IMG/VR virus record: IMGVR_UViG_3300031841_001051
Coordinates: 1 to 32,030 of that record
Direction: 5' to 3' (one strand)
From: a virus
DNA length: 32,030 nt
Of this stretch, positions 56-26,182 are shown piece after piece; within the stretch, counting starts at the first letter, position 1; each line of letters opens with the position of its first letter. The notes under the pieces are model-generated. The model saw nothing but the letters and a program-made list of their open reading frames with translations. It ran no database searches and was not told where the DNA came from. The position numbers were made by a program, and so were the translations under genes.

Positions 56-1429
56 TTATAATGCGATTGCCATAGCAATAGCGAATCCGTTTGAAGCCAA
101 TCCAGTTGCATCCACAGCTGCGACCTGCCAAGATGATCCATTATAGACTTTTAGTTCGTTACTTGTTGTATTAAAATATAAATCTCCAGCAGTCAAAGCA
201 TCTCCATCATTATCCACTGTAGGATCAGACGCTTTAGCTCCTAAATAAGTATCGTCAAAATTATCTGCTGCTGCTTCGGCAGCTGCCTGAGCTGCTTCGG
301 CAGCAGTTTGAGCTGTACTTGCAGCTGTTGCACTTGTAGCCGCATTCGTTGCACTGGTAGCTGCATTGGTTTCTGAAGTTGCGGCATTAGTAGCAGAGGT
401 ACTTGCCTCACTTGCCTTTGTGGTAGCAGTCGTAGCAGAGGTTGCTGCATTCGTTTCACTCGTAGCTGCATTCGTAGCTGAAGTTGATGCTTCACTCGCT
501 TTAGTCGTAGCAGTAGTTGCTGACGTAGAAGCTGAAGTCGCTGATGTTGCAGCGTTAGTTTCTGAAGTTGAAGCGTTAGTTTCACTTGTTGCTGCGTTAG
601 TCGCTGAAGTGGCTGCATTTGTTTCAGATGTACTCGCATTAGATTCTGAAGTAGCGGCATTTGATTCGGATGTTGCCGCAGCTGTAGCTGAGTTCGCTGC
701 CGCTGTAGCAGAAGCTGCTGCATTAGTTGCAGACGTTGCCGCTGATACTGCATCAACAATGAGTTCAAAGTGATCCGTGTCAGTAAGTAAATCACCTACC
801 ACACTATCAGCTGTACAAATGTAAACATTATTTAGTTGTGCAGCAGTCGTTGATTTAATTAAATCTCTTACATTATAATTTGAAGTTGTGGTTGTGGTAT
901 CTGTACCTTGGTAAGTACCAATCTCTTGAGTAACTGAAATATCTCCATTCTCATCAAAAGCTAAAATCTTTCCTGATCGTGTTGTTTGACCTACAGTAAA
1001 TGTACCCGCATCTTCGGCATTAGAGTTAAAGTCATTGGTTTTAGAAAACTTAATAGTACGATCCACTTCTTCTTGAAGTTGTTGAATTGCCATCATTGAG
1101 CGATCCAATCCCTCTTCATGGCTCTCCGCAGGAAAAGGATCATTCGCAATATAATCTATTGCTTGTGTTTGCGGGATAGCTCTTCTAAGAACGACTGTAA
1201 TACCACTTGCAGGAGCAGTGACAAAAGTTACTGTTCCACCATTTGCATTCCCAGCACCTGTCATAGTGTAATGGGTTGTGATTGTCTGTACAGTTTCTGA
1301 ACCTGTAGAGTCTGTTCTTAAAATAACCTCAAGATCGCTATTCTCAAAAATCTTAAATGTGTAGTTAAACGCAGTAGTAGATCCGTCACCTGAGTATGAA
1401 TTTCTAACTGTTGTAGATGATATTGTCAT
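56..1429 (-). CDS. tail fibre protein with T7 gp17-like N-terminal domain
   Basis: A 457-residue fibre. Residues 1 to about 130 match the T7 gp17 N-terminal module that anchors the fibre to the tail: an opening with SYSGDGSTTAFNYTF, then a pattern including LRRAIPQTQ, DYIANDPFPAESHE and a helical LDRSMMAIQQLQEEVDR. Residues 227-389 are a long Ala/Ser/Thr/Asn repeat with a 7-residue period, probably a coiled shaft. Residues 390-457 form a short non-repetitive tip containing GDLYFNTTSNELKVYNGSSW, a motif common near the ends of phage fibres. No chaperone or depolymerase domain is visible, so receptor binding may need other proteins such as the paralogous set at the right end. It follows the internal virion genes, as in T7-like phages. 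The start has an AGGAG-like site just upstream. Confidence 0.88.
   Translation of the reverse strand: MTISSTTVRNSYSGDGSTTAFNYTFKIFENSDLEVILRTDSTGSETVQTITTHYTMTGAGNANGGTVTFVTAPASGITVVLRRAIPQTQAIDYIANDPFPAESHEEGLDRSMMAIQQLQEEVDRTIKFSKTNDFNSNAEDAGTFTVGQTTRSGKILAFDENGDISVTQEIGTYQGTDTTTTTSNYNVRDLIKSTTAAQLNNVYICTADSVVGDLLTDTDHFELIVDAVSAATSATNAAASATAAANSATAAATSESNAATSESNASTSETNAATSATNAATSETNASTSETNAATSATSASTSATTATTKASEASTSATNAATSETNAATSATTATTKASEASTSATNAATSETNAATSATNAATSATAASTAQTAAEAAQAAAEAAADNFDDTYLGAKASDPTVDNDGDALTAGDLYFNTTSNELKVYNGSSWQVAAVDATGLASNGFAIAMAIAL
263..751 (-). repeat. heptad-type Ala/Ser/Thr repeat tract in the tail fibre gene
   Basis: This stretch encodes residues 227-389, built of 7-residue units such as NAATSET and NASTSET. 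Two adjacent 28-residue blocks (residues 303-330 and 331-358, DNA 440-523 and 356-439) are identical in protein, yet by hand count their DNA differs at 22 of 84 positions, all synonymous. This is a protein-level tandem repeat, likely the fibre shaft. Confidence 0.8.
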
Positions 1430-15299: not shown

Positions 15300-16574
15300 T
15301 TATATAATCCTGTATTCGTTATCTGCTACACTTTGTGGTGCAGTTTGTCTAGTATTAAGTTCCTGTAGTCCAACCGCAAGATACCTCATGGCATCACAAG
15401 CATGTGAACTCCAATCGTGTACAGGTTTTGATCTAAACATTCTTGTCTTGTCTATATACTTCCTGTGATAATGTCTTAACGCATCAATGAGTTTTTTGCA
15501 ATGGTCTACATCAATCCAAACTCTTGGTAGCAGCATGGTCGTTGCATGTATTCCATCTTCTAATGGTAATTTTGGTACGACTTTAAATCGTATTCCTAAT
15601 TGATAGGCGACCTCTCTACGGGTCTTACCATTACTAAAATCTGTAACTTCAATGTCATGCGGAGCGAAATGATCTTGATAGATATAATCTTTTTCTTTAA
15701 CAAGCTGAGCAAAGAAAGGAAGTCCTTGTCCGCGCTCTTCAATATAATCTATGACATTAACACTTCTACCCATTTGCTGCCAGAATATAATCGCCGTATG
15801 ATCTGATACACCTAAATCCCAGCTCGTATTGACTGGCAAGGAAGGATCGTATGGTACACGACCTATCTGTCTTTTGTTTTCCATATCTGCAATGACTTTG
15901 CCGTAAATTGCACCTTCAATGTTTGCAGTCCATTCGCATTCAAACTCTTGTTTAAACTTGTTCTCACCCATAATCTCTTTTGCTTTCTCAAGCTCTTCCT
16001 CATCTACAATCTGTGTCTTGCTTGCCTTAGCCTTAAAATAAAACCAGTCTTTTGTATTTTGCTGTGCATGCTGATAAAGTTCATAGAAGTTATTATTCAT
16101 ACCTTGAGGTGTTCCAATAAATACACAAAATCCTTTTCTGTCTGATAATGCCGGTCTTATAATCTCCGGAAACAATCGTTCATTTACGTTTGCATATTCA
16201 TCAATAACACATCCATCTAAATAAATACCTCTGATACCATCACAGTTTTCAGATCCTAATAATGTTATTCTTGCTCCATTTGGAAAATCTACTCTAAGTT
16301 CTGTTTCGTTATATTTGATACCCGGAATGCCGTAAGTAAACTGTTTAATGTAATCCCATGCAATTGATTTGGATTGTTTGAATGTAGGCGAAATATAGGC
16401 AAATCTTGGGTTCTTGTTTTTATTTTCCAATGCCGCCATAATCAAATGACAGATCATCATCACAGTTTTGCCAAATCTTCGGTGACATACAAGTACAGAC
16501 CAACGATAATCTCTAAGTTTATGATGTATAAACTCCTGATGTTTACGCGCTGTGTAAGGTACAGTTGAAATCAT
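15300..16574 (-). CDS. terL: terminase large subunit
   Basis: 424 residues with both expected domains. ATPase: Walker A-like CHRRFGKT (residues 30-37), Walker B CVIDE (122-126), and coupling motif IGTPQG (153-158). RNase H-like nuclease: first Asp in SWDLGVSDHT (D253), a middle HDIEV (D307) and the final DWSSHACDAMRY (around D387/D394). It packages DNA through the portal and cuts it. The ATG overlaps the preceding stop as TAATG. TerS does not adjoin it but lies about 2.7 kb away on the same strand, behind an oppositely oriented island. The length is at the short end of the family but all motifs are present. Confidence 0.95.
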   Translation of the reverse strand: MISTVPYTARKHQEFIHHKLRDYRWSVLVCHRRFGKTVMMICHLIMAALENKNKNPRFAYISPTFKQSKSIAWDYIKQFTYGIPGIKYNETELRVDFPNGARITLLGSENCDGIRGIYLDGCVIDEYANVNERLFPEIIRPALSDRKGFCVFIGTPQGMNNNFYELYQHAQQNTKDWFYFKAKASKTQIVDEEELEKAKEIMGENKFKQEFECEWTANIEGAIYGKVIADMENKRQIGRVPYDPSLPVNTSWDLGVSDHTAIIFWQQMGRSVNVIDYIEERGQGLPFFAQLVKEKDYIYQDHFAPHDIEVTDFSNGKTRREVAYQLGIRFKVVPKLPLEDGIHATTMLLPRVWIDVDHCKKLIDALRHYHRKYIDKTRMFRSKPVHDWSSHACDAMRYLAVGLQELNTRQTAPQSVADNEYRII

Positions 16575-17156: not shown

Positions 17157-17187
17157 AATATTAAACAAAATAATGGAAGGTGTAACA

Positions 17188-17457
17188 ATGAAAACAATAA
17201 ACTACAAAAATAAAACTTATAAGTTGCCATTTAATGTAGCTTGTAATCAATCAACCGCTTGTCAGTTGGTTGAAGTTGAAAACCCTTTTAGCGGTGAAAA
17301 ATGTTTTTTACCGGGTTTTGCTGTAGCTGTTTATGATGCGATTAAAGGCGCTGAATATTTAGCCGAGACAAACCCGTCATTATATAAAACAGTTGAAACC
17401 GGTGTTAGTTGGTTTTCAAAAAATTTTACAAACGAATATTTCGTTTTATTAGATTAA
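17188..17457 (+). CDS. unknown small protein, first gene of the island
   Basis: 89 residues starting MKTINYKNKTYKLPFNVAC. I chose the ATG at 17,188 rather than the in-frame ATG at 17,173, because GGAAGG lies at proper distance before it and the upstream ATG overlaps that ribosome site. The gene at 18,799 has nearly the same leader (AATGGAAGGGGTAAACATG). The protein has three Cys, a Gly-rich centre (NPFSGEKCFLPGFAVAVY) and a possible amphipathic helix AIKGAEYLAETN. No family was recognised. Early expression is plausible because it is the first gene behind a sigma70-like promoter. Confidence 0.65.
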   Translation: MKTINYKNKTYKLPFNVACNQSTACQLVEVENPFSGEKCFLPGFAVAVYDAIKGAEYLAETNPSLYKTVETGVSWFSKNFTNEYFVLLD

Positions 17458-17466
17458 GGGGGTTAT

Positions 17467-17646
17467 ATGTTTAATTTAATAACTAGAAATAAAAAACCTA
17501 AGACAAGGGACGATTATAGAAAAATTAAACGTCAACTTGAAAGTGATCCGGATCATGGTCAATTATTTACTTATATGACACTGGACCACTTTATTAATCT
17601 AGTATCTAAATATTTTGATACTTCACCAAAAAAGCTATACAATTAA
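17467..17646 (+). CDS. unknown small protein
   Basis: 59 residues: a basic start MFNLITRNKKPKTRDDYRKI, an acidic turn LESDPDHGQL, then a helix TYMTLDHFINLVSKYF. It lies 9 bases after the preceding stop with GGGGG just upstream of the ATG, and 10 bases before a strong intrinsic terminator, so it is the last gene of the first transcript. I do not recognise a family. The clean position between operon neighbour and terminator supports it as a real gene. Confidence 0.6.
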   Translation: MFNLITRNKKPKTRDDYRKIKRQLESDPDHGQLFTYMTLDHFINLVSKYFDTSPKKLYN

Positions 17647-17656
17647 ATCACTAAAC

Positions 17657-17695
17657 AAAACCCCTGTTAAATTAATTTTTGACGGGGGTTTTTTT
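17657..17695 (+). terminator. intrinsic terminator
   Basis: AAAACCCCTGT pairs with ACGGGGGTTTT (11 bp with one U-G pair), loop of 14 bases, ending in a run of seven T. This is the clearest rho-independent terminator in the window and ends the two-gene transcript started near 17,163. Confidence 0.88.
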
Positions 17696-17698
17696 ATA

Positions 17699-17726
17699 TT
17701 GACTATATAGACTAAAAGGTTATAAA
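17699..17726 (+). promoter_or_regulatory. putative promoter after the terminator
   Basis: TTGACT (17,699-17,704), 16 bases, TATAAA (17,721-17,726). It directly follows the terminator and would start transcription about 20 bases before the ATG at 17,756, which has GGAGG upstream. It would restart transcription for the rest of the island. Confidence 0.55.
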
Positions 17727-17755
17727 CATAATTAAACAATGGAGGATATAAAACA

Positions 17756-17911
17756 ATGAGAGATGAGTTAAGACAATTAATAAACAAAGTTATTAAATTA
17801 TCTATTTATGCTGATGAGCAAAACTATCACCCGTCAACTGTAAATGGTTTAATAACAATTGAGTTAAAATTACAAAAAATACTAGAAGGGATAAAAAACA
17901 ATGAGAATTAA
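17756..17911 (+). CDS. unknown small helical protein
   Basis: 51 residues starting MRDELRQLINKVIKLSIYAD, middle EQNYHPSTVNGLITIELKLQ, ending GIKNNEN. It is predicted by eye to be two helices joined by a Pro-containing turn. ATGGAGGATATAAAACAATG gives a good GGAGG site before the start. The next gene overlaps its end by 11 bases. No known family; its place as the first gene behind its own promoter makes translation likely. Confidence 0.6.
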   Translation: MRDELRQLINKVIKLSIYADEQNYHPSTVNGLITIELKLQKILEGIKNNEN

Positions 17912-18074
17912 AAAGAATGATCTAAGTTACTATTTCATATTTGATAAAAAAGACCTGCCTAAATCATACGTTGATAGCTGCGAGTCATTTTTTAATGAAA
18001 TAAGACAAATTAAAAACCCGGCTGCAACATACAAGGCAGCCGTTAATAGACTTAAAAAAAGGGTTAAAAAATGA
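17901..18074 (+). CDS. unknown small basic protein
   Basis: 57 residues: MRIKKNDLSYYFIFDKKDLP, then a helix SYVDSCESFFNEIRQIKNPA, ending NRLKKRVKK. It overlaps the preceding gene by 11 bases and the Gp88-like gene by ATGA, so the three are translationally coupled. AAGGG lies before the start. The basic C-terminus suggests nucleic acid contact, which is inference only. Confidence 0.6.
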   Translation: MRIKKNDLSYYFIFDKKDLPKSYVDSCESFFNEIRQIKNPAATYKAAVNRLKKRVKK

Positions 18075-18772
18075 ATTATAAACCTCAAAAAAAACTATTA
18101 AGTTTTGCTAATTACAAAATGCAAAAATCAATAAAATTTGGTTATGCGAGCGCAATTTTACATTTAGCGCCATATAATTTAAGCGGCGTTAATATTTGTC
18201 CTATGGCTTCTAAGGGTTGCGCTGCAGCCTGCTTAAACACAGCTGGACGGGGTCAAATGAATAGCGTGCAAAAAAGCCGGGTTAATAAAACGAGATACTT
18301 TTTAAAAGACCGCGCTAAATTTTTAGATCATTTAGACCGCGAAATAAAAACCTACCATAGAAAAGCAATAAAAGACGGTTTAAAATTAAATATTCGTTTA
18401 AATGGTACAAGTGACCTGCCGTTTGAGCGCTATAAATTGCCAAACGGTAAAAACTTAATGGAAAACAATCCGGGGGTTATATTTCATGATTACACCAAAA
18501 TTAAAAATAGATGTGATCAAGTGTTACCTAAAAATTATAAATTAACTTTTAGCCGGTCTGAAAGTAATCAAAATGATGTTGAGGACCTAATAAAAACTAA
18601 AACTAACATTGCTGTAGTTTTTAATAAATTACCAAAAAAATATTTAGGACGTAAAGTTATTGACGGTGATATATCGGACCTTAGGTTTAAAGACCCTAAA
18701 GGCGTAATTGTAGGTCTATTGGCTAAAGGCAAGGCTAAAAAAGACCCGTCAGGATTTACAGTTAAATTATAA
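18071..18772 (+). CDS. Gp88-family phage protein
   Basis: 233 residues. The N-terminal half holds the family signature: LSFANYKMQKSIKFGYASAI, then NICPMASKGCAAACLNTAGR (C43-x6-C50-x3-C54), then a basic helix KSRVNKTRYFLKD. It is followed by LNIRLNGTSDLPFE and FHDYTKIKNR, LTFSRSESNQ and near the end DGDISDLRFKDPKGVIVGL. The family is named after mycobacteriophage gene 88 and occurs in many phages. The three close Cys suggest a metal or cluster site, and the strand pattern suggests a barrel-like fold. Its activity is not known to me. It is coupled to the small gene before it. Confidence 0.8.
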   Translation: MNYKPQKKLLSFANYKMQKSIKFGYASAILHLAPYNLSGVNICPMASKGCAAACLNTAGRGQMNSVQKSRVNKTRYFLKDRAKFLDHLDREIKTYHRKAIKDGLKLNIRLNGTSDLPFERYKLPNGKNLMENNPGVIFHDYTKIKNRCDQVLPKNYKLTFSRSESNQNDVEDLIKTKTNIAVVFNKLPKKYLGRKVIDGDISDLRFKDPKGVIVGLLAKGKAKKDPSGFTVKL

Positions 18773-18798
18773 CAATAAAAACAATGGAAGGGGTAAAC

Positions 18799-19014
18799 AT
18801 GAAAAGATACAAAATAACAATCTATGAGACAATTTCTTATGAAATTGAATTTTGCGCTAATTCGGAGGATGACGCGGAAACACTGGCAGCGGTAGAGTAT
18901 AAACAAAACGGGATTAAGAATTTTTATGACCCGGAAACCATAGACTGGAATATATGCACCGTTGATGAGATTGACAATGTCATAAAATTTAAGGGGGTGA
19001 AGCGTGACCAATAA
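18799..19014 (+). CDS. unknown small acidic protein
   Basis: 71 residues: MKRYKITIYETISYEIEFCA then NSEDDAETLAAVEYKQNGI and the end DNVIKFKGVKRDQ. The strand-helix-strand pattern with the hydrophobic alternation YKITIYETISYEIEF resembles small phage proteins that fold as a beta-hairpin plus helix. The ATG at 18,799 is preferred over 18,784, since GGAAGGGG lies between them. The next gene starts within its end at GTG 19,004. The first TCGGAG of the cluster lies in this gene as Ser-Glu codons. Confidence 0.62.
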   Translation: MKRYKITIYETISYEIEFCANSEDDAETLAAVEYKQNGIKNFYDPETIDWNICTVDEIDNVIKFKGVKRDQ

Positions 19015-19153
19015 AAAAGATTATCAAGAAGCGCTCAAAAATAAAAGAGCGTTTGATAATGCAACAAAACGCTTTGAGAGAATTTCGGAGCTATTTTCGG
19101 AGCGTAAAACAAAAAACAAGAAAGGAAAGCATGCCAAAAACAAAAAAAAATAA
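19004..19153 (+). CDS. tiny basic protein, GTG start
   Basis: 49 residues: MTNKKDYQEALKNKRAFDNA, then TKRFERISELFSERKTKNKK, ending GKHAKNKKK. GGGGGTGA lies just upstream of the GTG, which overlaps the preceding stop region. It is a single charged helix with a Lys-rich tail. Three of the TCGGAG hexamers lie in or beside it, two as Ser-Glu codons. It is coding by ribosome site and frame; function unknown. Confidence 0.5.
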   Translation: MTNKKDYQEALKNKRAFDNATKRFERISELFSERKTKNKKGKHAKNKKK

Positions 19154-19274
19154 ACTATCGGAGCGAAAAAAAGATAGTTTTCACAAGGCATTAAAAAAGA
19201 AACTCAATCAACAATTCGGAGGTTTAAAAATTAAAAATCTCGGGGATGGGTTGACTGAAATTTCAATTAAATAA
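19131..19274 (+). CDS. tiny basic protein at the end of the island
   Basis: 47 residues: MPKTKKNKLSERKKDSFHKA then LKKKLNQQFGGLKIKNLGDG and LTEISIK. The ATG at 19,131 is preceded by AAGAAAGGAAAGC. The frame remains open upstream, but that part overlaps the previous gene and has no ribosome site. It ends one base before the stop of the converging TerS-like gene. No terminator is seen at this junction, so the transcripts may overlap. Function unknown. Confidence 0.55.
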   Translation: MPKTKKNKLSERKKDSFHKALKKKLNQQFGGLKIKNLGDGLTEISIK

Positions 19275-19275
19275 A

Positions 19276-19752
19276 TTATTTAGTATCTGGCGGGGTATAC
19301 TCATATTCCGCTGGGTCTAATTCTATTGGTTCGTTAAAACTAGATTCAAATCTTACCGTAATATCGGAGTCAGTTTTAACGTGCTGTGGTTTATTATCGG
19401 AGTAAATATCGGTTAGTTTGCTCGCTAACCACTGGATAAACTTGGTACGCTCCCGGAGGTATAACACGGCATTCGGAGAATCAATGTCCTCTTTGTTATA
19501 AACCTTCATAAGTTTATCTATAAGTGTTTGAATACCATACTTCCTAGCTTCCATTACTCTTTTTTCTATTTTCGGATCTTTTTTGCATAACCTGTAAAAA
19601 TCGGTCAAGCTCATCTCCCAGTCCTTCTCCTTTTCTTCTAAGATTTCCGAAAGGGTTCTTCCTTTTAAAAGCATGTTTTCTAGAATAACGAGACGGTTCT
19701 CTGTCACCTCGGGTAAGGACTTCTTGTTTGATATATTTTTTAATTTCTTCAT
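19276..19752 (-). CDS. terS: terminase small subunit-like protein
   Basis: 158 residues. An N-terminal helix-turn-helix region (TLSEILEEKEKDWEMSLTDF, then YRLCKKDPKIEKRVMEARKY) is followed by a helix GIQTLIDKLMKVYN and by YLRERTKFIQWLASKLTDIY, which matches the TerS pattern R...i.WlasKL.p..Y. TerS recognises the packaging site and loads TerL. The start is uncertain: ATG 19,752 has no clear ribosome site, TTG 19,776 is possible, and the frame is closed above 19,783. The first two fifths overlap the zinc-finger gene in another frame, so it could be translated by coupling or by a +1 frameshift. The TCGGAG cluster lies across its 3' half. Confidence 0.68.
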   Translation of the reverse strand: MKKLKNISNKKSLPEVTENRLVILENMLLKGRTLSEILEEKEKDWEMSLTDFYRLCKKDPKIEKRVMEARKYGIQTLIDKLMKVYNKEDIDSPNAVLYLRERTKFIQWLASKLTDIYSDNKPQHVKTDSDITVRFESSFNEPIELDPAEYEYTPPDTK

Positions 19753-19966
19753 CTGTTTTTGTTGTAAATTGTGCAAGTCCTTTTAATTGTCGGACTCTAC
19801 TTTCTAATGTATAGTTTCCTTTTTTGAATTTGTCTACATTTTGGCTTCCATGAAACCGGCACAAAAGTTTACCTTTTGCTGTGGGAAACCCTTTAGCATA
19901 ACATCTCGTACCTCTCCTAGTAATGCCTTCACAAAATACACGTTTATGTTTCTTTCCGCCTCTCAT
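19544..19966 (-). CDS. CxxxC/HG-type zinc-finger phage protein overlapping TerS
   Basis: 140 residues. Residues 10-40 (FCEGITRRGTRCYAKGFPTA, then KLLCRFHGS) match the small phage zinc-binding motif C-x9-C-x13-C-x2-H-G, with C12, C22, C36 and H39. A basic region and a helix (KGLAQFTTKTDEEIKKYIKQ) follow. The last 77 codons lie over the TerS-like gene in a different frame and are basic and low in order (YSRKHAFKRKNPFGNLRRKG), so the functional protein may end earlier or shift frame. It starts directly after the initiator-like gene. Such proteins are often near terminase genes; the role is unknown. Confidence 0.65.
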   Translation of the reverse strand: MRGGKKHKRVFCEGITRRGTRCYAKGFPTAKGKLLCRFHGSQNVDKFKKGNYTLESRVRQLKGLAQFTTKTDEEIKKYIKQEVLTRGDREPSRYSRKHAFKRKNPFGNLRRKGEGLGDELDRFLQVMQKRSENRKKSNGS

Positions 19967-20650
19967 TTATTTCCAAGGCTTAATTCCGTTTCTAATATTA
20001 TAAGCCTTAACTTGCTTATATCGTGTGTTAGTCTGCTTAGCAACGTTGCGGATAGCAGCTTGTATGGTCTTTGGGTCTACAAGGTTTTGATTTTTTTCGG
20101 CGTCTAGTTTCCTCTCTAACGCCAGCTTACAATAATATATCATATAATTGTTTTCTATAGACTTGTTTAGGATAGGCAGCGGGAGTACACTTAAGAGTTC
20201 TATAGACTTTTCCTTATCATAACCCTTACTACAAATATCTTTAACTTCCTTAATTTCACCTTTAATAGTAATAGTATTGTTTCTACTAATATAGCCAGAA
20301 TTTGACACTTTACTGTCAGAATTTGACAATTGACTGTCAAAATTTGACACCTCAGATTTTAAAAACTTCTCGTTTATAGAGTAAGTACAGCCAGATCTAC
20401 CCTTCTTAATTTTAATGATATTTAGCTTGGCAAGTGAATTAAGAGCTGCCTTAACGCTATTCCGGGATAGATTTGTATCCTTTACAATCGTGCTATGCCT
20501 CAAATCACATCTATAATTATTCATCTTCCAAGCATATTTCATAAGAGATAAATACACATTTAGCGCTCGTCCCTTTGCAGGACCTGATAATTTGTCCAAA
20601 AAATGATATAATTTGTAAGTAATATGTAGAAAACCCCTTACTTTTGGCAC
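19967..20650 (-). CDS. winged-helix replication initiator-like protein
   Basis: 227 residues with a winged helix-turn-helix in residues 25-95: KGRALNVYLSLMKYAWKMNN, then LRHSTIVKDTNLSRNSVKAA and LNSLAKLNIIKIKKGRSG. This resembles the DNA-binding part of phage replication organisers (lambda O/DnaD-like, HTH_36 type). A middle 7-residue repeat (VSNFDSQ/LSNSDSK/VSNSGY) is encoded by the three 21-bp repeats at 20,288-20,350. The C-terminal part (IRNVAKQTNTRYKQVKAYNI) is basic. The GTG start overlaps the upstream gene by 13 bases and has only a weak ribosome site. A transcription regulator is the alternative; the iterons favour an initiator. Confidence 0.65.
   Translation of the reverse strand: MPKVRGFLHITYKLYHFLDKLSGPAKGRALNVYLSLMKYAWKMNNYRCDLRHSTIVKDTNLSRNSVKAALNSLAKLNIIKIKKGRSGCTYSINEKFLKSEVSNFDSQLSNSDSKVSNSGYISRNNTITIKGEIKEVKDICSKGYDKEKSIELLSVLPLPILNKSIENNYMIYYCKLALERKLDAEKNQNLVDPKTIQAAIRNVAKQTNTRYKQVKAYNIRNGIKPWK
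20288..20350 (-). repeat. three 21-bp iteron-like repeats with palindromic core
   Basis: On the minus strand, three units in tandem start at 20,350, 20,329 and 20,308. Each begins (G/T)TGTCAAATT(C/T)TG, and the first two contain the near-palindrome TGTCAAATTYTGACA; the third reads ...TGGCT. The period of 21 bp equals two helical turns, so protein would bind on one face. AT-rich sequence lies next to it (20,264-20,293). Lambda-type origins carry iterons inside the initiator gene in just this way. Confidence 0.75.
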
Positions 20651-24038: not shown

Positions 24039-24155
24039 ATGGATCAAGCGGGGTTTTATCCTAATGACTCAGAGTTTATTGTTATGCTCTGCCTTTCTTT
24101 TTGGATATCCTTTCTTTCATTGTTTTCCCCGCTTGGTCTGCTTTATTCATCATGA
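24039..24155 (+). CDS. possible 38-residue membrane peptide before the methyltransferase
   Basis: The frame reads MDQAGFYPNDSEFIVMLCLS then FWISFLSLFSPLGLLYSS. It holds one hydrophobic segment (about residues 13-36) and its TGA overlaps the methyltransferase ATG as ATGA, which suggests translational coupling. Against it: only a weak TAGG ribosome site, and the same DNA forms a long inverted repeat (24,042-24,138), so this may be a structured RNA leader rather than a gene. Confidence 0.4.
   Translation: MDQAGFYPNDSEFIVMLCLSFWISFLSLFSPLGLLYSS
24042..24138 (+). repeat. nested inverted repeats upstream of the methyltransferase gene
   Basis: GATCAAGCGGGG (24,042-24,053) pairs with CCCCGCTTGGTC (24,127-24,138): 11 Watson-Crick pairs and one U-G. 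Inside, CAGAG pairs with CTCTG around a 12-base loop and TATCC may pair with GGATA. No T-run follows. As RNA this could fold into a branched leader ending 13 bases before the methyltransferase ATG. Confidence 0.6.
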
Positions 24156-25012
24156 AATTATTAGATTTATTTAGTGGGATCGGTGGTTTTAGTTTAGGTC
24201 TAGAGTCTACCGGGTATTTTAAAACAATAGCTTTTTGTGAGAAGGATGAGTTCTGTCAAAAGGTATTAAGAAAACATTGGAAATATGTACCAATAGAAAG
24301 TGAGATAAGAAATGTCAAAGGATCAAACTACGAAGCAGACATCATTACAGGAGGATTTCCTTGCCAACCCTTCTCAGTCGCAGGAAAAAGAAAAGGAACA
24401 AACGATGATCGTTACCTCTGGGATGAAACTATTAGAGTCATTAGAGAAACAAAACCAAGGTGGTTTATTGGAGAAAATGTTGAAGGTATTATTAACATCC
24501 AAGACGGCATGGTACTCAGACAGGTGCAAAATGATTTGGAAGAGCAAGGTTTCCAAGTCCAATGTCTTGTTATTCCAGCTTCAGGCATCGGTGCGTGGCA
24601 TCAAAGGAAAAGAATCTGGATTATTGCCAACACCAAACACAATGGATCATATACACCGAAAAGGAATGAGACCATCAAGAGCAGCAACCAATCGGAAGAG
24701 TGGTTATTTGTCGGAGATGATAGGTTCAATGTATCCAACACCCCAAGCGAGGGATTACAAGGATTCTGGGATACATACGAATTACAAGAAATTAGAAAAA
24801 AAATCAAAACTAACCGGGAAGGTAATGATGGAACAAGACAAAGTTGGTGGCAAACTCAATCCAGAATTTGTGGAGTTCCTCATGGGGTATCCTTTGAATT
24901 GGACAAAGATAGAAACAACAGAATAAAATCACTTGGTAATTCTATTGTTCCTTTGATTGCAAGACAATTAGGATTAGCTATAATAGAGGCAGAACATGAC
25001 AATCAATCTTGA
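24152..25012 (+). CDS. DNA (cytosine-5) methyltransferase
   Basis: 286 residues. The start MKLLDLFSGIGGFSLGLEST is motif I (AdoMet binding), so ATG 24,152 is chosen over an upstream in-frame ATG at 24,101. Motif IV GGFPCQPFSVAGKRKG has the catalytic Cys (C71); motif VI is ENV (108-110); motif VIII is QRKRIW (151-156); motifs IX-X are KSLGNSIVPLIARQLG (about 259-273). The target recognition region between VIII and IX is short (about 90 residues). No partner restriction enzyme is seen, so it probably protects phage DNA or marks it. The coding sequence also carries a second open frame (24,312-24,926). Confidence 0.92.
   Translation: MKLLDLFSGIGGFSLGLESTGYFKTIAFCEKDEFCQKVLRKHWKYVPIESEIRNVKGSNYEADIITGGFPCQPFSVAGKRKGTNDDRYLWDETIRVIRETKPRWFIGENVEGIINIQDGMVLRQVQNDLEEQGFQVQCLVIPASGIGAWHQRKRIWIIANTKHNGSYTPKRNETIKSSNQSEEWLFVGDDRFNVSNTPSEGLQGFWDTYELQEIRKKIKTNREGNDGTRQSWWQTQSRICGVPHGVSFELDKDRNNRIKSLGNSIVPLIARQLGLAIIEAEHDNQS
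24312..24926 (+). CDS. possible overlapping gene inside the methyltransferase gene
   Basis: An uninterrupted 204-codon frame runs in another phase inside the C5 methyltransferase gene. It reads SLQEDFLANPSQSQEKEKEQ, TSGMKLLESL, then SGLLPTPNTMD, MYPTPQARDYKDS and GGKLNPEFVEFLMGYPLNWT. The motifs LPTP...ARDYK...LNPxFVExLMGxPxxW recur in phage proteins in databases, as I remember them, sometimes as separate ORFs. This may mean true double coding, or simply the shifted reading of conserved methyltransferase motifs. The ATG has no clear ribosome site (AAGAA just before it). Its stop falls before motif X of the main frame. Confidence 0.35.
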   Translation: MSKDQTTKQTSLQEDFLANPSQSQEKEKEQTMIVTSGMKLLESLEKQNQGGLLEKMLKVLLTSKTAWYSDRCKMIWKSKVSKSNVLLFQLQASVRGIKGKESGLLPTPNTMDHIHRKGMRPSRAATNRKSGYLSEMIGSMYPTPQARDYKDSGIHTNYKKLEKKSKLTGKVMMEQDKVGGKLNPEFVEFLMGYPLNWTKIETTE

Positions 25013-25642: not shown

Positions 25643-26182
25643 ATGTCCCGAAATACAAGTTACAATCTATTAGAAGAATTTAAGTACAAACAAAGTATAT
25701 CAGCTTACACCAACCTAACCGATAGAGAAAAAGAAATACATCTATCCGCATTCATGTCTGGATATAAACTAGGTCAGGATCATATGTTGAGAACAAAACA
25801 AAAGATTAAAGTCATTCATGTTAAGTCTGCACAAAATAAAGATGTAAGATTAGGTATCTCTAAGATGGGTAACAAGCAAGCAAGAGATATATTTTATAAA
25901 GTCATTCAGTTTTATAAAAGAACTGAAGCAGAAATTATATCACCAAGAAGATTAAGAGAGTATGCTGAAGTTAGATCTGTGATTATTAATTTGTTAAGAG
26001 AACTCACTTCATTATCTTTACCTGAGATTGGAAGAATTTTAGGAGGTAGAGATCATACTACAGTGCTGCATCACTTAAGATTAAAATTTGATGAAAAAAG
26101 ATTTTGGTCCAGCGATAGTCCGACTTGGAAATACTTTAATGAATTGAAAGATGAAATAGAAAAAGAATTTTCTAAGTTCTAG
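25643..26182 (+). CDS. stand-alone DnaA domain IV-like DNA-binding protein
   Basis: 179 residues. Residues 98-150 match the C-terminal DNA-binding domain of bacterial DnaA: ISPRRLREYAEVRSVIINLL, then SLPEIGRILGGRDHTTVLHH (125-144) with the GRDHTTV signature that contacts the DnaA box. There is no AAA+ ATPase domain; the first 95 residues are a different, helical and basic region (KYKQSISAYTNLTDREKEIH, then KMGNKQARDIFYKVIQFYKR). It could recruit or compete with host DnaA at a DnaA box such as the one at 21,844. It is the last gene of the rightward operon, with AAAGGAAA before the ATG, and overlaps the converging gene by 11 bases. Confidence 0.82.
   Translation: MSRNTSYNLLEEFKYKQSISAYTNLTDREKEIHLSAFMSGYKLGQDHMLRTKQKIKVIHVKSAQNKDVRLGISKMGNKQARDIFYKVIQFYKRTEAEIISPRRLREYAEVRSVIINLLRELTSLSLPEIGRILGGRDHTTVLHHLRLKFDEKRFWSSDSPTWKYFNELKDEIEKEFSKF

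Follow-up and report, generated by a model that had tools for sequence, protein, structure and literature searches.

A cluster of TCGGAG hexamers, all facing the same way, was found across the 3' border of the small terminase gene (terS) in a linear metagenome contig of phage DNA, the IMG/VR record of 32,030 bases analyzed here (the window). The clustering is strongly non-random, and we consider it somewhat probable that it represents a lineage-specific, unidirectional recognition (pac) array for the small terminase protein (TerS).

The phage and its terS region

The terminase-to-capsid part of the window has 74–78% DNA identity to HTVC010P-type pelagiphages, and by this sequence relationship the phage is itself a marine, SAR11-type pelagiphage of the HTVC010P type. 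The family name Ubiqueviridae was proposed for this group (PMC10504331). The large terminase gene, terL (15300–16574, minus strand; PF03237, phrog_2), is separated from terS (19276–19776, minus strand; PF20901, 2.2e-6; phrog_1482, 8.8e-6) by a block of small plus-strand genes (17173–19274) that converges on terS, and the small-gene block converges on terS likewise in the annotated isolates that were read. Located in this block beside the cluster is a GP88-family gene (18071–18772, plus strand; PF17338, 4.1e-41); several isolates' annotations have only short hypothetical genes in its place. A gene for a basic protein of 140 residues adjoins terS, and an O-like replication initiation gene (19967–20650, minus strand; phrog_678, 7.5e-9; HTH_36) is located upstream of it. 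Also encoded in the window is a small DnaA domain IV protein (25643–26182, plus strand; PF08299, 2.8e-18), which is annotated in many relatives as well.

Several other features of the window were observed. The tail-fibre gene (56–1429, minus strand) contains long Ala/Thr/Ser-rich repeats (NAATSETNAATSATNAS...), and these explain why further hexamers are clustered toward the left end of the window. An ORF for an m5C methyltransferase (24101–25012, plus strand; PF00145, 3.7e-52; phrog_363) overlaps, on the same strand and in a different frame, a 204-residue ORF (24312–24926, plus strand) that matches phrog_1008, "DNA methyltransferase" (1.3e-28). It is possible that this overlap reflects dual coding or a spurious family.

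The preliminary description of this DNA had already called the gene at 19276–19776 terS, and both profile and fold searches agree with it. The product scored 28.1 bits against PF20901 (Sf6_terminase), above the cut-off of 27, and its AlphaFold2 model (mean pLDDT 61) has a predicted N-terminal helix-turn-helix (HTH) and a helical oligomerization core, as in the Sf6-type fold. When the PDB was searched with this model using Foldseek, the top six matches were all Sf6 gp1 (prob 1.00), with E-values of only 0.03–0.12. Judged by profile and by modelled fold, the gene is that of an Sf6-type small terminase. Sf6 is a headful pac phage whose TerS is octameric (PMC9611059), and pac headful packaging was inferred for Skadi, a close family member (PMC10504331).

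Location and reading frames of the hexamers

TCGGAG occurs nine times in the window (at 18862, 19085, 19097, 19158, 19216, 19364, 19397, 19473 and 24711), always on the plus strand, and its complement, CTCCGA, is found nowhere in the 32,030 bases. Eight copies are located within 617 bases (18862–19478) and seven within 394 bases (19085–19478); our recount agrees exactly with the spans, counts and orientation reported previously. All eight clustered copies have the form WTCGGAG, a heptamer that is absent elsewhere in the window on both strands. Site 1 (18862–18867) is in a small plus-strand gene (18784–19014), and sites 2 and 3 (19085–19102) are in a small plus-strand ORF with a GTG start near 19004; all three are read as Ser-Glu codons. 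Sites 4 and 5 (19158–19221) are in a plus-strand ORF ending at 19274, and sites 6, 7 and 8 (19364–19478) fall within terS, on the strand opposite to the coding one and in two further phases. Three copies are inside the gene that would encode the reader of the array, and five are within about 414 bases of its 3' end.

Because the cluster straddles a switch of coding strand, an explanation by coding bias is awkward. The preliminary description had stated that the copies fall in genes of both orientations and in several frames; the former is correct, but the frames are less varied than this implies, as four of the five copies in plus-strand genes correspond to Ser-Glu and the remaining one to Phe-Gly-Gly. 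Its argument that a peptide repeat is no explanation holds, since the copies are on both coding strands. The word is also sharply defined, because the surrounding 1 kb has only 3 one-mismatch variants on the same strand (1.3 expected). Spacing between the sites is irregular, and no helical phasing was detected among them. A contig that is 99.85% identical to the window over 4 kb (L009) retains all eight copies, which argues against an assembly error.

Statistical analysis of the clustering

The total number of TCGGAG copies is modestly high (9 versus 3.5 expected, a number reached in 1 of 100 shuffles), and it is their clustering that is extreme. A Poisson scan gave p of about 1e-13 for the cluster on Markov expectation, and when all hexamers were scanned, only the homopolymer T6 ranked alongside TCGGAG. 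Among 300 simulated versions of the window (order-3 Markov), the top count for a hexamer with at least three G/C, on the same strand and within 617 bases, was 6, compared with 8 observed, so the enrichment persisted against a Markov background, the check suggested at the outset. As a positive control, the P1 pac hexamers were subjected to a similar scan and reached 10^-7.3, versus 10^-14.2 for the TCGGAG array.

Codon bias had been dismissed as an explanation, and the simulations agree: when terS was recoded synonymously with the codon usage of the genome, none of 3000 runs contained three or more TCGGAG copies (mean 0.047), and when codons were shuffled within terS the same number was reached at P = 0.002. 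On the other hand, the absence of the complement, although true, is not significant alone, since about 1.7 copies are expected per strand.

Different words at the same place in related phages

TerS was found in 159 loci, from which 106 non-redundant regions were kept. With the exception of L009, TerS relatives in IMG/VR were at most about 50% identical to that of the window, and GTDB genomes yielded one distant TerS match; a search with the neighboring 76-residue gene returned only the same contig. One TerS-bearing phage contig (L227) was within a genome labelled Woesearchaeota (PBPJ01000001.1), which is probably a binning error.

The exact TCGGAG cluster was absent in all sampled relatives and isolates (TerS at most about 50% identical) except L009, and exact conservation of the word was rejected on this basis. 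The original proposal of a pac-like array is partly supported: its statistics hold, as do its argument for a DNA-level feature and the location at the terS border. It had also been stated that terS-containing relatives without any such cluster would refute the proposal. For TCGGAG this is what we observed; however, the TerS proteins compared are at most about 50% identical, and Greip-type relatives have arrays of other words.

The whole genome of Greip EXVC021P has 10 forward copies of GGATAC and one reverse copy, and nine of the 10 are in 1.67 kb spanning terS and the adjacent block. In L197, all copies (11 forward, 0 reverse) are in 2.8 kb around terS and reach 2.2 kb past it. Across the Greip-type TerS clade, 88 forward and 5 reverse copies were detected in 79 kb of terS region, and in the sister clade 8 forward and 1 reverse in 78 kb. 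Forward density in the Greip-type clade was 4.5/kb in the 500 bases ending at the terS stop, 0.4–0.9/kb in the 2 kb after it, and ~0.1/kb past 2.5 kb. Some members (L115, L117 and L195) prefer GGATAT. Arrays of CAGAGG were observed in L169 (8 forward, 0 reverse) and L126 (8 forward, 2 reverse). The Greip-type arrays of GGATAC or GGATAT have the same place and orientation as TCGGAG in the window, and terS is included in the array in every lineage that has one. At least one clade (Greip-type), and probably two, carries a different word while keeping the place at terS and the orientation, as a lineage-specific recognition array predicts. The Greip-clade bias recurred among 15 new loci, though in small samples: three genomes of that clade had 7 forward and 0 reverse copies of GGATAC in total (none at all in one of them), and for CAGAGG the count was 8 to 1 across three further members of its own clade.

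Several other words were considered. CAACTA in L098 and L077 looks similar, is weaker and AT-rich, and was not relied on, and ATG-containing words (ATGACA, TGATGA) were discarded since start-codon or coding effects are probable. In Skadi-1, HTVC203P and a relative (L013, L019 and L175), GGAAACA repeats in one orientation are located about 1–3 kb downstream of terS, where the small-gene block approaches terL, and in Skadi they are close to ACCAAAG/CAAAGGA. These look like a different feature, perhaps a regulatory repeat.

We also compared the predicted recognition helix of TerS between lineages. It is nearly identical (SLMKFYxYL) in GGATAC and CAGAGG genomes, and that of the window (SLTDFYRLC) is clearly unlike it. 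A His in this helix (FYxYL) was considered post hoc as the determinant of CAGAGG and then recorded as a prediction; this failed on the 15 new loci, and with it the single residue-level test of covariation between TerS and the motif.

Controls for shared ancestry and coding bias

With naive scoring, no general excess of exact-hexamer arrays was detected at terS borders relative to control windows, although single lineages stood out, and repetitive coding sequence gave low p values in some of the relatives' control windows as well. Moreover, many GGATAC sites inside terS are at conserved codons and are co-inherited, and some downstream sites are common to several genomes, so that raw counts overstate independence. 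There was no sign of selection on the GGATAC codons in terS beyond shared ancestry.

As a cleaner test, we looked for same-strand recurrence of words repeated on the terS side in the downstream block of each genome, which is coded in the opposite direction. Words with at least three G/C that were repeated in terS occurred downstream 34 times on the same strand and 4 times on the other (about 10 expected), and AT-rich words had the opposite strand pattern, matching the prediction from coding bias. When a coding-strand-aware background was used, a log10 p below -8 was reached in 8 of the 106 genomes versus 0.65% of 2622 control pairings, in which terS-side and downstream sequences came from different clades, and below -10 in 4 genomes versus none of the pairings. 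The significant words were TCGGAG, GGATAC, GGATAT and CAGAGG; spaced-seed words gave the same picture and added more Greip-clade genomes. In about nine-tenths of the relatives no array was detectable by the exact-word test. With the coding-strand model and the mismatched-genome controls, an excess is seen that is confined to some lineages.

Possible roles of the array

A pac array is the best-supported reading of the cluster, and position, the headful-type TerS family, one-way orientation and the precedent of phage P1 are in keeping with it. In such an array, short, exact, same-facing sites around terS would initiate packaging, and their reader would be the ring of the phage's own Sf6-type TerS, through its HTH domains. 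On a cyclic ring, DNA that touches several of the protomers would encounter every HTH in one polarity, a property that direct rather than inverted repeats would fit. Several sites jointly would mark phage concatemers for the first cut by TerL, after which headful packaging would continue. We infer all three elements of this scheme, namely TerS as the reader, packaging initiation as the reaction and the polarity argument.

In a broader version, one exact short word, repeated in a single direction at scattered places in 0.6–2.8 kb of coding sequence at terS, would guide TerS throughout this phage family, and the word would change along with the terminase between lineages; this is possible, though we would lean against it at present. 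If true, packaging would be restricted to each phage's own DNA when relatives co-infect one SAR11 cell, which would hint at how phages with a common host keep packaging apart, and the pac code would be readable from sequence alone. How headful phages recognize their own DNA is still an unsettled question, and in vitro most pac TerS proteins studied showed weak DNA binding with no clear specificity (PMC9611059, PMC4737164). Should TerS read these arrays, the existence of several exact words, one to a lineage, would provide natural experiments in one of the most abundant phage families of the ocean, and isolates of array-bearing phages, e.g., Greip, have been described.

The array may also be a real DNA-level feature of the terS border that serves replication, transcription or recombination and is read by another protein, such as the O-like initiator, the DnaA-domain protein, the basic protein beside terS or a host factor. 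We regard this as rather unlikely, although it is the alternative that deserves most attention: genes for the O-like and DnaA domain IV proteins are nearby, changes of the word are not clearly mirrored in the TerS recognition helix, and the sites in L197 extend 2.2 kb outside terS. However, the array takes in terS in every lineage that has one, its spacing is irregular and unphased, and neither a cluster of DnaA boxes nor regularly spaced iterons, as expected of a replication origin, was found at it. The O-like gene holds three 21-base tandem repeats of its own (CAGAATTTGACAC...; 20296–20350), which are candidate origin iterons and better candidates than the array, and DnaA boxes are neither in excess nor clustered in the window; a role in replication is less likely for these two reasons.

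That the cluster is a functionless accident, either a statistical outlier or a passing local bias for repeated Ser-Glu codons (TCG GAG), is improbable. The predominance of Ser-Glu among the plus-gene copies, the lack of exact conservation and the low p values of some control windows are in its favor, but the copies on the other coding strand and in other frames, the 300 Markov copies and 3000 recoded terS genes, none of which matched the observation, and the finding that independent words take up this place and orientation in relatives at a higher rate than in mismatched controls all oppose it. Very little weight can be given to recognition at the RNA level, for example by a CsrA-like protein binding a GGA motif on a plus-strand transcript that runs antisense into terS. 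All copies are indeed read from a single strand, and GGA or AGG is contained in each of the words TCGGAG, GGATAC and CAGAGG; however, the sites have no common hairpin context (one or two are in a plausible loop and the others are not), and the phage has no known reader of this kind. An effect of restriction-modification appears just as remote. Phage T7 keeps an asymmetric recognition word in one orientation against a type III enzyme, and here too all nine sites are one-way and the phage encodes an m5C methyltransferase whose target the word might be. Such an effect would leave the clustering unexplained, the zero count on one strand is unremarkable at the expected frequency, and no PF00145 gene was present in the 12 relatives examined, Greip included.

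Comparison with known packaging systems

A pac function would be consistent with the location of the array in and next to terS, and several phages offer a comparison. The pac site of P1 is inside pacA and has seven TGATCA/G hexamers in 161 bases, and these hexamers have been disrupted synonymously so that less P1 DNA is packaged (PMC10028697). In both cases, several exact hexamers compatible with coding (eight TCGGAG in 617 bases here) are clustered in or at the gene for the packaging recognition subunit. Unlike the compact P1 site with its palindromic TGATCA and Dam GATC sequences, which functions with PacA/PacB and whose PacA is not an Sf6-type TerS, the window array is non-palindromic, one-way, spread over 617 bases (about 2.8 kb in relatives) and variable in its word between lineages. 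Since TCGGAG contains no GATC methylation site, we liken the array to P1 pac in its working and do not classify it as one.

The pac site of Bacillus phage SPP1 (boxes a, b and c) also consists of direct repeats at terS, and TerS domains of the Bacillus phage SF6 showed little or no preference for the pac repeats in vitro (PMC4737164). However, the SPP1 repeats occupy the beginning of terS and its promoters, whereas the window array covers the 3' end of the gene and the genes converging on it. Shigella phage Sf6 has in common with the window the family and predicted fold of TerS (gp1), and its terS surroundings contain no comparable unidirectional hexamer array (the best word, a coding-biased TGCTGA, reached 10^-5.6). 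In having several direct repeats close to a gene for a replication initiator, the array also recalls iterons of the lambda O type, from which it differs in its irregular spacing, lack of phasing and words of 6–7 bases. It is plausible, then, that the array belongs to a known kind, the hexamer pac array, and that what is new here is a longer, one-way form with a non-palindromic, GATC-free word specific to the lineage.
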